Source of the DNA: Fidelibacterota bacterium
GTDB lineage: Bacteria; Fidelibacterota; Marinisomatia; SCGC-AAA003-L08; TS1B11
NCBI GenBank assembly: GCA_030640955.1
Contig: DAOWIJ010000104.1
Location: forward strand, 1-35,814
Direction of reading: 5' to 3'
Length of the DNA: 35,814 bases
Within the stretch, counting starts at the first letter, position 1. Every line of letters begins with the position of its first letter. Shown piece by piece: positions 8,189 through 13,676 of this stretch. The notes beneath the pieces were generated by a model that had not been told where the DNA came from, searched no databases, and saw only the letters and a list, made by a program, of their open reading frames with translations. Made by a program: the position numbers and the translations under genes.

Positions 8189-8611
8189 ATGGATAATCAA
8201 CGTTTAAAATTTGTGATACTGATCATAGCGGTGGCCGTAATCACCTTTGGGTGGATTACTGTAGGCGTCGGTTCTGAAGAAGTCCCTTATGTCAGCATTA
8301 TGGAAATTGTAGCCAACAACTACGAATTCGAGCAGAACCGTCTGCGTCTGGGTGGCCTGGTTGAGGAAGGCTCTATCACCTATTCGACTGATCGCCTGAA
8401 CGTAGATTTCGTGATTGCCCAGGAAGAGCACCGGCTGGCGGTGCATTACCAGGGCTTGACACCCGACATGTTCAATGACGGGGCCGAGGTCATTATTGAA
8501 GGTCGTCTGCAGGATGAGGTCTTTATCGCCGATAACCTCATGACAAAATGCGCCTCGCGATACGAAGCTGACATCATCAAGCCCGAGAGCAATCCACAGG
8601 GGGAAATCTGA
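8189..8611 (+). CDS. ccmE: Cytochrome c haem chaperone CcmE, Cys-type variant
   Basis: CcmE carries haem from CcmABCD to the CcmF/H ligation complex on the outer face of the inner membrane. The 140-residue protein has an N-terminal membrane anchor (about 8-27), then an OB-fold with LRLGGLVEEGSI and a GAEVIIEGRL strand. In the usual protein a histidine in HxxxY binds haem covalently. Here the motif is Cys121-Ala-Ser-Arg-Tyr125, so cysteine replaces histidine while the tyrosine is kept. This CxxxY form is known from sulfate reducers and some archaea. The ATG at 8189 follows a CAGGAG element. This is the first gene of the ccm operon, after a 130-bp gap that probably contains its promoter. Confidence 0.93.
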   Translation: MDNQRLKFVILIIAVAVITFGWITVGVGSEEVPYVSIMEIVANNYEFEQNRLRLGGLVEEGSITYSTDRLNVDFVIAQEEHRLAVHYQGLTPDMFNDGAEVIIEGRLQDEVFIADNLMTKCASRYEADIIKPESNPQGEI

Positions 8612-8616
8612 TTGTC

Positions 8617-10587
8617 ATGATTACTCTTGGCGCCTACTCACTTCAGTTGGGATTTTTATTCGCGTTGGTCAGCCTCGGATTCGGGGGCTGGACTCTGGCG
8701 CGTGACGACGGCAGATTTCAGGTAGCCGCTCAGCGTGCGCTGGTGATCAGCTCGGGATTCGTATTGCTTGCCACGGCAGTCCTGGTGCAGCAGCTGCTGA
8801 TCAGCAATCTTGATTTGGAATACGTGGTGCGTTACAGTAGTGTGGAAACACCGACCATGTACAAGTTTGCCGGTTTATGGGCCGGCATGGAGGGGTCTCT
8901 GCTGTTCTGGTCAGCTATTTTGGCCATCTATATTGTTCTGATCAATTTCCTCAACCGGCAGCGTAACCAGACCCTGATGCCTCTGGTGAATATCGTGCTG
9001 GGTATCATCCTGCTTTTCTTCTTACTGGTCAATATCTTCTTTGAGAATCCTTTCACTTTATTGCCGCCGGGCACCATCTTGCAGGGCAGTGGTATGGGGC
9101 TGAACCCACTCCTGCAGCACCCGGTGATGTTAATTCATCCACCCATTCTATATCTGGGTTATGTAGGCTTCGCTATCCCCTTTGCATTCGCTGTAGCGGC
9201 CCTTATACGGCGGCGCCTGGATGCCACCTGGATCAGGTCCACCCGCAGATGGACCCTCATTCCGTGGCTCTTTCTGGGCGTCGGCATTATACTGGGAGGC
9301 ATGTGGGCTTATGTGGAATTGGGTTGGGGTGGTTACTGGTCCTGGGACCCCGTGGAAAATGCCTCCTTGCTGCCGTGGTTGACCGGCACGGCTTACCTGC
9401 ATTCGGTGATCATCCAGGAGAAAAAGAACATGCTCAGGCTCTGGAACGTGATCCTGATAATGATCACCTTTATCCTGACCATTTTTGGCACCTATATTAC
9501 CCGCAGTGGGATTATATCGTCGGTGCATGCTTTTGCCGCCACCGACCTGGGTATCTGGTTTTTCGGGTTTGTGGTGTTCACCATAGTGGCCTGTGTGGGC
9601 CTGATCCTGCTCCGGTGGGATGAGTTCGCCTCCCCCAACCGCCTGGAATCATTCACCAGCCGCGAAAGCGGATTCCTGTTCAACAACATGGTATTCTTGG
9701 CCCTGACCCTGGCAGTGTTGTGGGGTACCATGTTCCCGGTTTTATCGGAAGCGGTACGAGGCGCCAAGATTACGGTAGGCTCACCCTATTTTAACCGCAT
9801 CACTACACCTATGGGACTCATATTACTGGCACTCATGGGTATTGGGCCGCTTCTGGCCTGGCGCAAGACCTCCAATGCTACGATCAAGAGGAACTTCATC
9901 TGGCCCGGCGTGGGAGCAGTCGTAGTGCTCGTGACAGGTCTGGCTATGGGCGTCTCCAGTATCTATGTAGTGGTAACCCTGGCACTGGCTTCGTTTGTGC
10001 TGGTTGGCATTGTACTGGAATTGGCCCGGGGGATTGCAGCCCGGCGGAGAATAGCCGGTGAAGGTATGTTAACCGCGCTGCTGAATATGGTAGACAAAAA
10101 TCGCAGCCGGTATGGTGGTTATACGGTGCATCTGGGCATTCTGATCATGTTCATCGGTTTCACCGGCAAGGCCTTTACCGTTGAGCAGGATATGACCTTA
10201 AGGGAGGGCGAAAAGACTCAGCTGAAAGACTACGTATTTACCTTGCAGCATCATTATATTGAGAAACGCCCTAATCATATTGCCAAGGTAATCGACTTGA
10301 CCGTAGCTAAGGATGAGCACATAATTGCAACTCTGTCCCCGGAAAAGCGCTTTTACACGGATAGTGATCAACCCAACACCGAGGTAGCCATATTCAGTCA
10401 CGGCTTGATCGATCTGTACGCCATTTTGGGAGATTTTGACCAGGAGACCGGTGTCGCCGTGCTCAAAATCATGATCAATCCGTTAGTGCAGCTGATCTGG
10501 TTGGGAGGTATTATCATGGTTCTGGGTACGATCATCGCCATCCTGCCCAGCCGGGCTGACCGGAAGCTCCAGGAGAAATTGACGTGA
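8617..10587 (+). CDS. ccmF: Cytochrome c haem lyase subunit CcmF
   Basis: CcmF is the large integral membrane component that transfers haem from CcmE to apocytochrome c CxxCH motifs. The 656-residue protein is strongly hydrophobic, with numerous membrane helices. It contains the tryptophan-rich WWD haem-handling domain at about 237-253 (WGGYWSWDPVENASLLPW), the upstream HPPILYLGYVG segment with a conserved histidine, and a C-terminal periplasmic region followed by a last helix near 620-640. Length agrees with the family. It starts 5 bases after ccmE and its stop overlaps the GTG start of ccmH, so translation is coupled. Confidence 0.96.
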   Translation: MITLGAYSLQLGFLFALVSLGFGGWTLARDDGRFQVAAQRALVISSGFVLLATAVLVQQLLISNLDLEYVVRYSSVETPTMYKFAGLWAGMEGSLLFWSAILAIYIVLINFLNRQRNQTLMPLVNIVLGIILLFFLLVNIFFENPFTLLPPGTILQGSGMGLNPLLQHPVMLIHPPILYLGYVGFAIPFAFAVAALIRRRLDATWIRSTRRWTLIPWLFLGVGIILGGMWAYVELGWGGYWSWDPVENASLLPWLTGTAYLHSVIIQEKKNMLRLWNVILIMITFILTIFGTYITRSGIISSVHAFAATDLGIWFFGFVVFTIVACVGLILLRWDEFASPNRLESFTSRESGFLFNNMVFLALTLAVLWGTMFPVLSEAVRGAKITVGSPYFNRITTPMGLILLALMGIGPLLAWRKTSNATIKRNFIWPGVGAVVVLVTGLAMGVSSIYVVVTLALASFVLVGIVLELARGIAARRRIAGEGMLTALLNMVDKNRSRYGGYTVHLGILIMFIGFTGKAFTVEQDMTLREGEKTQLKDYVFTLQHHYIEKRPNHIAKVIDLTVAKDEHIIATLSPEKRFYTDSDQPNTEVAIFSHGLIDLYAILGDFDQETGVAVLKIMINPLVQLIWLGGIIMVLGTIIAILPSRADRKLQEKLT

Positions 10588-11039
10588 AAGGATTCACCGC
10601 GTTAGTAACGATTTTTTCCCTGGTTGCTGTTTTGCCCGCACAGGAAGCCAAGAACCCGCTGCAGAGAGAACTGGAATATGAAATCATGGCGCCCTGCTGC
10701 TATGGCAGCCCTGTTGGGGACCATGAATCGGAAGCGGCGCAGCAGGTTAAGGTCCAGATCGCCCAACTGCTGGCGGAAGGCAAGACCAAGGAAGAGATCC
10801 TGGATATGTACGTAGCCATTTATGGTGAACGTATCCTGGCCAGGCCGCGGGCCCAGGGTTTTAATCTCATGGCCTATATCGTCCCGCCCCTGTTGTTGGT
10901 AGTTGGCGGATTGTTTCTCTTTTACTACCTTAATCGCGTGACGAGTCCAGCTGCGCGGCCCGTAAGTGCGAACCGTGAATCATACAGTGATGAATTCTTC
11001 AGTAAGATCGAGAAAGAGATGAAAGAATTGGACATTTGA
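10584..11039 (+). CDS. ccmH: Cytochrome c maturation protein CcmH-like, vicinal Cys-Cys variant
   Basis: CcmH normally reduces or presents the apocytochrome thiols through an LRCxxC motif. This 151-residue protein has the family layout: a signal or anchor segment (1-19), a short periplasmic domain, then a membrane helix at about 95-115. Conserved features are a helix with KTKEEILDMYVAIYGERIL and an RP pair before the second helix. The motif region reads IMAPCCYG. Aligned on the downstream Asp and Ala positions, the second cysteine (Cys39) is kept, the first is replaced by Ala36, and a new Cys38 is adjacent. A vicinal Cys-Cys cannot work like an ordinary CxxC disulfide. The GTG start lies within the ccmF stop. 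Confidence 0.85.
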   Translation: MKGFTALVTIFSLVAVLPAQEAKNPLQRELEYEIMAPCCYGSPVGDHESEAAQQVKVQIAQLLAEGKTKEEILDMYVAIYGERILARPRAQGFNLMAYIVPPLLLVVGGLFLFYYLNRVTSPAARPVSANRESYSDEFFSKIEKEMKELDI

Positions 11040-11040
11040 T

Positions 11041-11508
11041 ATGGAGCATCTGATTGCCCCTCTACTATTATTTCTGGCATTTACATCCGCGGCCTACTAT
11101 ATACTGCTGCCTTTTCTAACTGTAACCGGACCCGTAACGGAGAATGCATCTGTGGAGTCGAACGCTTTGCAGTTACGCAAGATGTCGCTGTACAAGCAGA
11201 TCCGGGAAGCCGAGTTCGACCAGGAAATGGGCTTGATCGACAGCGAAGATTATGAACGGACCAGGACGGATCTACTGGCTGAGACTGCCGTAGTCATTCA
11301 TCGACTGGAGGGCGGTAGTGACCCGGTGCAGACGACTGCTTTGCATACGCAGCCCACCTGCCCGAACTGTGATGACCCCATAACGCCTGGTGTCAAATTC
11401 TGCAGCAATTGTGGCAGCCAACTGGCGGCGAGCTGTCCTCAGTGTGGCTCTTCCACTGTGCCGGGTGACCGCTTCTGCAGCTCCTGCGGCAGGGGACTTT
11501 TAGAGTAA
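11041..11508 (+). CDS. CcmI-like membrane protein with two C-terminal zinc ribbons
   Basis: I do not recognise this as a named protein. It has 155 residues. An N-terminal membrane helix (about 5-26) is followed by a helical stretch (43-90) rich in charged residues, including YKQIREAEFDQEMGLIDSED and YERTR. That stretch resembles the juxtamembrane segment of CcmI, which escorts apocytochromes to the lyase. Two zinc ribbons follow: cysteines 107/110 with 121/124, and 132/135 with 146/149, each CPxC...CSxC. TPR domains typical of full CcmI are absent. Its position between ccmH and ccmA, two bases after ccmH, argues for a role in haem ligation. Which side of the membrane the ribbons face is unknown. 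Confidence 0.8.
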   Translation: MEHLIAPLLLFLAFTSAAYYILLPFLTVTGPVTENASVESNALQLRKMSLYKQIREAEFDQEMGLIDSEDYERTRTDLLAETAVVIHRLEGGSDPVQTTALHTQPTCPNCDDPITPGVKFCSNCGSQLAASCPQCGSSTVPGDRFCSSCGRGLLE

Positions 11509-11519
11509 TATTGTAACAG

Positions 11520-12218
11520 GTGGATCAGCTGTTAATCGCTCAGGGCATTGGCAAGTCATTTCACCTGCGCCCGGTACTCACTGATGTCACATTTTCCCTG
11601 GCTGCCGGTCAGATTACATACCTCATCGGCCGTAATGGCTGCGGCAAAACCACCCTTTTAAAGATTTTAGCCGGTGTAATGCGCCCCGAAGCCGGCATAG
11701 CCAGCCTGAATGGCCGTGCCATGTTTGGACTAGGCGGCTCCTGGCGGCGGGAGATGGTCTACCTGGGCCACCGGCCCATCATGTATCAAGCCTTCACGGC
11801 CCGGGAAAACATCCGCTTGGCGGTCCAGCTCCGTGGCCAGACCTGGGACGAGAGCCAATTCCGGGAATTGGCGCGGCAATATGGACTCGGTGGACGTGAA
11901 GACGACCGTATCGGGATTTATTCCGAAGGCATGCTCAAGCGGCTGGGATTGATCCGTCTGGAAATGTCAAGTTGGAGCCTGGCCTATCTGGATGAGCCCG
12001 GTTCGGCATTGGACGTGGATGGCAGTCTGATATTGCGCGAAACCTTTGATCGCTGGCGCTCACAGGGCCGTTCAATTCTGTTTACCAGCCATGATATGGG
12101 TTGGGGCGCGGCGGTAGCGGACCGGGCAATCATGCTTAGCGGCGGTACCGTTTCAGAAGACCTAGCCGCACCGGAAGAAGCGCATTTGGTAGACCTGCTG
12201 AAAGAGGCGGCCAAGTGA
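11520..12218 (+). CDS. ccmA: Haem exporter ATP-binding protein CcmA
   Basis: CcmA is the ATPase of the CcmABCD complex that loads and releases haem-bound CcmE. The 232-residue ABC domain shows Walker A GRNGCGKTT (37-45), an ABC signature altered to YSEGM (134-138, normally LSGGQ-like), Walker B with LAYLDEP (155-160), a D-loop GSALD and switch histidine in SHDMGW. Degenerate signatures with SxGM are seen in CcmA proteins, which supports this identity over a generic ABC ATPase. The start is GTG at 11520 with only a weak upstream ribosome-binding site. ccmB follows with a 4-base overlap. Confidence 0.92.
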   Translation: MDQLLIAQGIGKSFHLRPVLTDVTFSLAAGQITYLIGRNGCGKTTLLKILAGVMRPEAGIASLNGRAMFGLGGSWRREMVYLGHRPIMYQAFTARENIRLAVQLRGQTWDESQFRELARQYGLGGREDDRIGIYSEGMLKRLGLIRLEMSSWSLAYLDEPGSALDVDGSLILRETFDRWRSQGRSILFTSHDMGWGAAVADRAIMLSGGTVSEDLAAPEEAHLVDLLKEAAK

Positions 12219-12880
12219 ATTTTTGGGCGATACTGATGAAAGATTTGCGTATGGAGCTCCGCACCCGGGAGAGCCTGGCGGTGATGACGGTCTTTGCCCT
12301 GGCGGTAATCCTATTGTTCTCATTTGCTTTTGATATCGGTATGAACCGCTTCCCTTCCTTCGTTCCCGGACTAATGTGGTTGACCTATTTTTTCACGGCC
12401 GTGCTGGGCCTGATCAGATCATTCGGCTGGGAGAAAGAGCTGGATGCCTGGGATATCCTTCTGACTTCACCGGTTGACCGCAGCATGATCTATTTAGGCA
12501 AGTGCGCCGCCTTTTTTATTTTCCTGCTGCTGGCGCAACTCATCAGCCTGCCTTTTTTCATGCTGTTTCTCGGATTGCCGCTGTTGGCGGCGCCCCTGTC
12601 ATTCATCGCTATTTTGCTCACGGTCGATGGGGCGATTGCGGCCGTGGGAGTGCTGATTGCCGGTATGAGTCACCGAACGCCCGCGGGAGAGACCTTATTG
12701 CCCATTCTGTTGTTTCCAACCCTGACACCGGTCTTGATTGCAGCTACCAAAGCAACCACAACGGCGCTGGCAAGTAAGCCTTTTCAGGAATGGGATTTCT
12801 GGTTAATGTTAATTGTTACTTTTTTGGTGCTGTTCGTTTTAGCGGGCGCCTTTATTTTTGATTATATTGCGGAGCAATAG
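12215..12880 (+). CDS. ccmB: Haem exporter membrane protein CcmB
   Basis: CcmB is the six-helix permease partner of CcmA. The 221-residue protein has an N-terminal amphipathic stretch (FWAILMKDLRMELRTRES), then hydrophobic segments starting near 22, 48, 95, 127, 160 and 196. The family hallmarks GLIRSFGWEKELDAWDILLTSPVDRS and the MSHRTPAGETLLPILLFP-like segment in the C-terminal half are present. Length is normal. The start is GTG at 12215, overlapping the ccmA stop, and the stop abuts the ccmC ATG with no spacer. This tight packing is expected for subunits of one complex. Confidence 0.93.
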   Translation: MNFWAILMKDLRMELRTRESLAVMTVFALAVILLFSFAFDIGMNRFPSFVPGLMWLTYFFTAVLGLIRSFGWEKELDAWDILLTSPVDRSMIYLGKCAAFFIFLLLAQLISLPFFMLFLGLPLLAAPLSFIAILLTVDGAIAAVGVLIAGMSHRTPAGETLLPILLFPTLTPVLIAATKATTTALASKPFQEWDFWLMLIVTFLVLFVLAGAFIFDYIAEQ

Positions 12881-13570
12881 ATGCAGAGTTATCACTCACA
12901 TCCGCTTAACAGAATATTTCTGGGGCTGACGATCCTGGTTGCCATGATCAACCTCTGGCTGATTTACCAGGTAGCGCCGCTGGTAGTTGACCAGGAGATG
13001 GCCCAGAAGATTTTCTATTATCATGTTCCGCTGGCCTGGAACGCCTTCCTGGCCTTTGGATTGGTTGCCGTCACAGCCGCGCTGTACCTGGTAAAAAATG
13101 ATCCCAAATGGGATATCTGGTCACTGGCGGGGGCCGAGGTGGGCGTGCTGTTCGCCGCCCTGATCCTGGTCACTGGTCCTATCTGGGCCACACCTATCTG
13201 GGGCAAGCCCTGGAGCTGGGAACCCCGTCTCACAACCACCCTGGTGCTCTTTCTGATCTTTCTGGGATATTTCATGGTGCGGGAATTTGGCGGGCCTTAC
13301 GAACGGTCCTCCAGATACGCGGCTGTCATTGGCCTTCTAGCCGTCATCGATATACCGCTGATCCTTTTGGCGGTCAAGTGGTGGACCCCGGAAGTGCAAA
13401 GCCATCCCCAGATGGAAATGGGAAACCAGCCGTCCGCGGTCCTGTACGTATTTTTCTTCTCACTGTTCAGTTTCACCTTGATACTGATCCACATGATCCG
13501 TTACCGCTGGCATGTCAGGCGGCTGGTCCATAGTAATCTTATGGAACAGGAAGGAGGCTCCCATGTATAA
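12881..13570 (+). CDS. ccmC: Haem handling membrane protein CcmC
   Basis: CcmC binds haem and attaches it to CcmE. The 229-residue protein has six predicted membrane helices, two conserved histidines (His48 in YYHVPLAW and His175 in VQSHPQM) and a tryptophan-rich WWD box at 107-118 (WGKPWSWEPRLT). The usual aspartate after the last tryptophan is glutamate here (Glu114), a mild deviation. The ATG directly follows the ccmB stop. The last codons contain a strong ribosome-binding site and overlap the small ccmD gene. A ccsA-type protein is the main alternative, but length and neighbours favour CcmC. Confidence 0.93.
   Translation: MQSYHSHPLNRIFLGLTILVAMINLWLIYQVAPLVVDQEMAQKIFYYHVPLAWNAFLAFGLVAVTAALYLVKNDPKWDIWSLAGAEVGVLFAALILVTGPIWATPIWGKPWSWEPRLTTTLVLFLIFLGYFMVREFGGPYERSSRYAAVIGLLAVIDIPLILLAVKWWTPEVQSHPQMEMGNQPSAVLYVFFFSLFSFTLILIHMIRYRWHVRRLVHSNLMEQEGGSHV
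13551..13557 (+). promoter_or_regulatory. Strong ribosome-binding site for ccmD within ccmC
   Basis: AAGGAGG at 13551-13557 is a near-perfect Shine-Dalgarno sequence placed five bases before an ATG at 13563. It lies within the last codons of ccmC, so its presence supports translation of the overlapping small frame as ccmD. Confidence 0.75.
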
Positions 13571-13676
13571 GTACCACGGTTATTTGCTGGCTTGTATCAT
13601 CATTATCTGGGTAGCCATCATCGGTTTCTTTGTACGGACCTGGTTGTTGGAGCGCAAGCAACTTTCTCAGCGCTGA
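13563..13676 (+). CDS. ccmD: Small membrane protein CcmD
   Basis: This 37-residue frame starts inside the ccmC stop region (8-base overlap) and ends with TGA at 13674-13676. It encodes MYKYHGYLLA, then a hydrophobic helix (about 8-28) and a basic C-terminus (RKQLSQR). That is the plan of CcmD: a short N-terminus with an aromatic-His-Gly-Tyr patch, one helix and a positively charged tail on the cytoplasmic side. CcmD helps release CcmE-haem from CcmABC. Position directly after ccmC matches ccm operons elsewhere. Sequence conservation in CcmD is low, so identity rests on size, topology, position and the strong ribosome-binding site. Confidence 0.75.
   Translation: MYKYHGYLLACIIIIWVAIIGFFVRTWLLERKQLSQR

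Follow-up and report, generated by a model that had tools for sequence, protein, structure and literature searches.

The window, the whole stretch of 35,814 nucleotides that was analysed, contains eight head-to-tail genes in the order ccmE-F-H-I-A-B-C-D, with ccmE in the first position (Table 1).

Table 1. Genes and features of the ccm operon in the window.
Feature	Positions	Strand	Basis
ccmE, 140 aa: N-terminal TM helix, OB-fold domain, C-terminal tail	8189..8611	+	PF03100, AF2 model, Foldseek
C121-A-S-R-Y125, predicted haem-attachment motif (HDENY in E. coli)	8549..8563	+	codons, profile alignment
ccmF, 656 aa, predicted holocytochrome c synthase, WWD domain	8617..10587	+	PF01578, PF16327
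ccmH, 151 aa, vicinal site MAP-C38-C39-YG in place of LRCxxC	10584..11039	+	PF03918
CcmI-like protein: one TM helix, coiled-coil-like stretch, double zinc ribbon	11041..11508	+	PF12773/PF13240
ccmA, ABC ATPase	11520..12218	+	PF00005; TIGR01189 under its cut-off
ccmB	12215..12880	+	PF03379, E=2e-23
ccmC, 229 aa	12881..13570	+	PF01578, TIGR01191
Candidate ccmD, 37 aa, single TM	13563..13676	+	short ORF that overlaps the stop of ccmC

Alignment to E. coli CcmF recovers the four conserved haem-ligand histidines (H174, H262, H304 and H505), and CcmC retains both periplasmic histidines, P-His1 as H48 and P-His2 within ...QSHPQ.... The CcmI-like protein has no TPR domain; its gene occupies the equivalent position in most of the ccm operons of the phylum. 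A similar architecture (TM, coiled coil and zinc ribbon) occurs in Acidobacteriota as well (locus L172). The candidate ccmD yields no Pfam match, and the ORF is also present in relatives of the family. The operon (8189-13676) was found to carry no ccmG, as is typical of System I*, the Cys-type variant of System I, in which CcmG is absent from the operon. Another contig of the same genome encodes a 652-aa DsbD adjoining a WCPPC thioredoxin of the ResA/TlpA type, and at least one CXXCH cytochrome is encoded in this genome.

The product of the first gene (ORF 8189-8608) matches PF03100 with E=1.2e-27 (96.6 bits; cut-off 24.6). The codons TGC GCC TCG CGA TAC translate to C121-A-S-R-Y125, and in a profile alignment built from the window CcmE and 15 relatives, which was preferred to a pairwise alignment that misplaced the C-terminus, the E. 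coli CcmE residues opposite C121 and Y125 are H130, which binds haem, and Y134. The AF2 model (mean pLDDT 82) consists of a TM helix at residues 2-25 and a beta barrel that ends at residue 119, which would place C121 directly behind the last OB strand. The best Foldseek matches of this model are CcmE structures (8ce8, 1sr3, 1lm0, 1j6q and 2kct), of which 2kct is the Cys-type CcmE of D. vulgaris. The protein thus displays the System I* signature, Cys for the haem-binding His and Tyr or Phe four residues on. The CASRY motif described in the earlier note is confirmed, as is its assignment to the variant System I of Desulfovibrio and archaea, to which the tree placement (see below) also points.

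By analogy with homologues, Cys121 probably binds haem: the Cys of D. desulfuricans CcmE forms a covalent bond to haem (reviewed in PMC3601427), and C120 of M. acetivorans is required for holo-CcmE (PMC9084895). These results, and the invariance of the Cys and the Tyr among the CcmE relatives compared, make it quite improbable that Cys121 is something other than the attachment site, for example, a structural thiol in a protein that holds haem non-covalently. The report of non-covalent ferric haem binding through C127 in D. vulgaris CcmE (PMC3884852) speaks for that alternative and implies that not every Cys-type CcmE need attach haem covalently.

Named relatives assign the window to Candidatus Neomarinimicrobiota. 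Of the 199 genomes sampled from this phylum, 111 encode CcmE, and every CcmE that was read there carries CASRY, CASKY, CASRF or CPSKY; the relatives include three chromosome-length records (CP070787, CP070656 and CP070638). Therefore, the substitution is neither an error nor unique to the window genome, which excludes chance as well as the sequencing error from His to Cys that the earlier note named as a possible refutation. Across all the loci gathered, CcmE is Cys-type at 183 of 200, a proportion that is no frequency estimate given that the set was partly picked with the Cys pattern. Pseudomonadota, Chloroflexota and archaea entered the survey unsystematically. One of the chromosome-length records, CP070787, contains an additional CcmE, an orphan of the Cys-type that lies far away from the ccm operon (L057:2975-3397, L075:9956-10378). 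In one family of the phylum (CPSKY; L052 and L054), ccmE directly precedes ccmA-B-C, with no ccmF within the fetched stretch.

For the phylogeny, 88 CcmE domains were analysed in IQ-TREE after masking of the motif, with two kinds of support; the sequences span Neomarinimicrobiota, Acidobacteriota, Planctomycetota, the phylum of the Mailhella record, Bacillota, Actinomycetota, Deinococcota and Pseudomonadota. All 17 sampled His-type CcmEs fall on one side of a single branch (support 99/95), that is, His and Cys are separated by one change on the tree, and the window CcmE groups with the Cys-types, apart from the His-types. Many of the other forks in this tree of a short domain are poorly supported, whereas the His/Cys split is well supported; the tree is unrooted, so the direction of the change is not inferred. 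Phylum-wide and deeply rooted, the Cys is a feature of the CcmE lineage of the window and no recent substitution. The tree of His- and Cys-types that the earlier note proposed accordingly gives one His-type clade, and the single change implies no intermediate, contrary to one of the two readings offered there.

Retention of CcmH beside a Cys-type CcmE is usual and not a transitional oddity. Among the 111 ccmE-positive Neomarinimicrobiota genomes, 94 also encode CcmH, and the 17 CcmH-negative ones come mostly from a part of the phylum in which CcmH is so divergent that its scores lie close to the threshold. Of the 18 genomes with CcmE in the phylum of the Mailhella record, 17 have the Cys-type, and CcmH is present in 10 of these 17. 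Acidobacteriota loci combine ccmE-F-H with a Cys-type CcmE, and two Bacillota plasmids show a like arrangement with an annotated CcmH. The co-occurrence as such is already known: CcmH was found in about one-third of the bacteria with a Cys-type CcmE, and its absence was considered not characteristic (PMC3601427, 2011). The absence of CcmH belonged to the 2006/2010 description of System I* and was dropped in PMC3601427; the ccmH at 10584-11039 departs from that description, as do most of the Cys-type genomes surveyed. The genome counts rule out the generalization that Cys-CcmE systems are devoid of CcmH, and the survey corrects a common summary to this effect. The premise of the earlier note, that the variant usually lacks CcmH, was thus outdated, with PMC3601427 already reporting otherwise.

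The location of ccmH bears on the possibility that the window operon is transitional: a System I of the His-type in which Cys recently replaced His and which is on the way to losing CcmH. Among the families fetched, ccmH is operon-linked only in the order of the window and in one other family; the others have the operon order E-F-I-A-B-C, with ccmH elsewhere in the genome. Such a pattern could be taken for progressive loss, but operons without ccmH mostly have the gene elsewhere in the same genome and the His/Cys change is single and deep. Moreover, the window CcmH is a conserved APCC form instead of a decayed RCxxC protein, and the window CcmC has the His-Pro pair of the Cys-types (both described below). 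Taken together, these observations render a transitional origin highly improbable.

The CcmH-like gene noticed earlier in the operon is borne out by a PF03918 match with E=1.1e-20 (73.7 bits against a cut-off of 25); its profile matches the CcmH structures 2kw0 and 2hl7 in the PDB, and the AF2 model is helical (pLDDT 88). The canonical site of CcmH is LRCxxC. The window protein instead reads A36-P-C38-C39, where C39 aligns with C46 of E. coli, so that the second canonical Cys alone stays in place, with the first shifted to the adjacent position. None of the 55 distinct sequences of operon-linked CcmH beside a Cys-CcmE has RCxxC or MCxxC; the sites comprise 13 vicinal CC, 34 C-x-C-G and 8 other forms. 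All the readable operon-linked CcmHs of His-type operons have RCxxC (RCLVCQ at L308; L303 was left out, its match being out of frame at the site). No prior report of this correlate was found in the literature consulted. Larger genomes have vicinal-CC forms, whereas small-genome Neomarinimicrobiota (0.7-1.0 Mb; L160, L161 and L203-L220) encode an unlinked MCPxC CcmH of about 120 aa beside a Cys-CcmE. This rules out the proposition that a canonical CxxC CcmH never occurs in Cys-type genomes and makes the non-CxxC site a tendency of the operons, not a cell-wide rule.

A comparison of the columns of CcmA, B, C, E and F between His- and Cys-types yielded only two that separate the types fully, namely, the H/C of CcmE itself and the CcmC residue that follows the equivalent of E. 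coli His184. This residue is Pro in 107 of the 110 Cys-type rows (which include some duplicate genomes), and of the three exceptions, two seem to be copies of the same broken ORF and the third a contig end; it is Gln in all 9 aligned His-types and in the His-type operons L299, L352, L353 and L355. A haloarchaeal system that lies outside both types has His-Ala at this position. His184 of CcmC has been proposed as the second ligand of the haem, and models put the haem-receiving residue of CcmE beside it (PMC10457321, PMC6204919), although axial ligation in CcmCD is contested by a 2026 paper (PMC13141917). In the model of PMC10457321, the separating residue adjoins the site where CcmE receives haem. 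No prior report of the Pro/Gln correlate was found in the literature consulted. PMC3601427 poses as an open question the lack of any compensatory features identified in the remaining Ccm proteins of System I*, and the residue after His184 offers a specific hypothesis for it.

These correlates suggest, tentatively, a distinct Cys-type subsystem in which CcmC (the His-Pro loop) and CcmH (a vicinal or Cys-rich site) would be co-adapted to the thioether chemistry of CcmE, and in which the job of CcmH would differ from that of RCxxC CcmH. The contrasts in the operon-linked CcmH and in CcmC, the latter being the sole fully separating column besides the CcmE H/C, favour this possibility. Given that His/Cys changed once on the tree, though, the CcmC and CcmH correlates amount to one evolutionary observation, and the unlinked MCPxC CcmH of the small-genome members, which have a Cys-CcmE, also counts against it. 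Co-adaptation of CcmC and CcmH with the Cys-CcmE, as it might be read from the sequences, is unproven. The 'distinct variant' of the earlier note survives weakly, in the vicinal APCC CcmH and the CcmC His-Pro; in other respects the window operon is an ordinary member of the known Cys-type System I*. A speculative and rather doubtful generalization is that Cys-type Ccm is an ancient, self-contained System I lineage with a matched CcmC (Pro for Gln after His184) and a non-CxxC site in CcmH, the window operon being the version with operon-encoded CcmH. If true, these two features would explain the failure of CcmE-only His/Cys swaps in both systems. Two features merit following up: the His-Pro/His-Gln marker in CcmC and the CcmH with vicinal cysteines.

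The subsystem reading extends, and does not oppose, the explanation that we prefer, with a probability of roughly 0.9, namely that the window operon is a complete Cys-type Ccm system (System I*) that keeps CcmH. This explanation builds on the observed gene content, motif, phylogeny and conservation, and its haem chemistry and partner interactions are drawn from homologues, the chemistry from those of D. desulfuricans and M. acetivorans. CcmABCD would load haem at the periplasmic side of CcmC, and Cys121 of CcmE would take it covalently, through a thioether to a vinyl group, with Tyr125 as the likely axial iron ligand. CcmE would then hand the haem to the CcmF/CcmH synthase, which would attach it to reduced CXXCH apocytochromes. 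The unlinked DsbD and the ResA/TlpA-type thioredoxin are the probable reductants that keep the apocytochromes reduced, and CcmH would work via the vicinal Cys38-Cys39 site instead of CxxC.

The System I* of D. desulfuricans (Goddard et al. 2010, via PMC3601427) shares with the window the CxxxY CcmE, CcmABCDF including CcmD, and an operon without ccmG, but has no CcmH; the window further differs in the motif (CASRY against the commonest CPSKY) and in the zinc-ribbon CcmI-like protein. The streamlined Ccm of M. acetivorans (PMC9084895) shares the CxxxY of CcmE, the Cys of which is required there, whereas the window also has CcmD, CcmH and an undivided CcmF. The Bacillota plasmids of Cytobacillus firmus and Metabacillus share the order ccmE(CPSKY)-F-H-x-A-B-C, the annotated CcmH and the CcmC His-Pro; they differ in a CcmH site with neither CxxC nor CC and in a TlpA at the end of the operon. 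E. coli System I has homologues of CcmA, B, C, E, F and H with the conserved haem-ligand histidines but differs in the His-type CcmE, an RCxxC CcmH fused to TPR, a CcmG in the operon and the CcmC His-Gln. Archaea are described as lacking CcmD and carrying CxxxY. The CcmE on a plasmid of Natronorubrum bangense (L348:3634-4107) reads LTVRAHEGEH at the haem site, which is neither HxxxY nor CxxxY, and the same haloarchaeal record annotates a CcmD.
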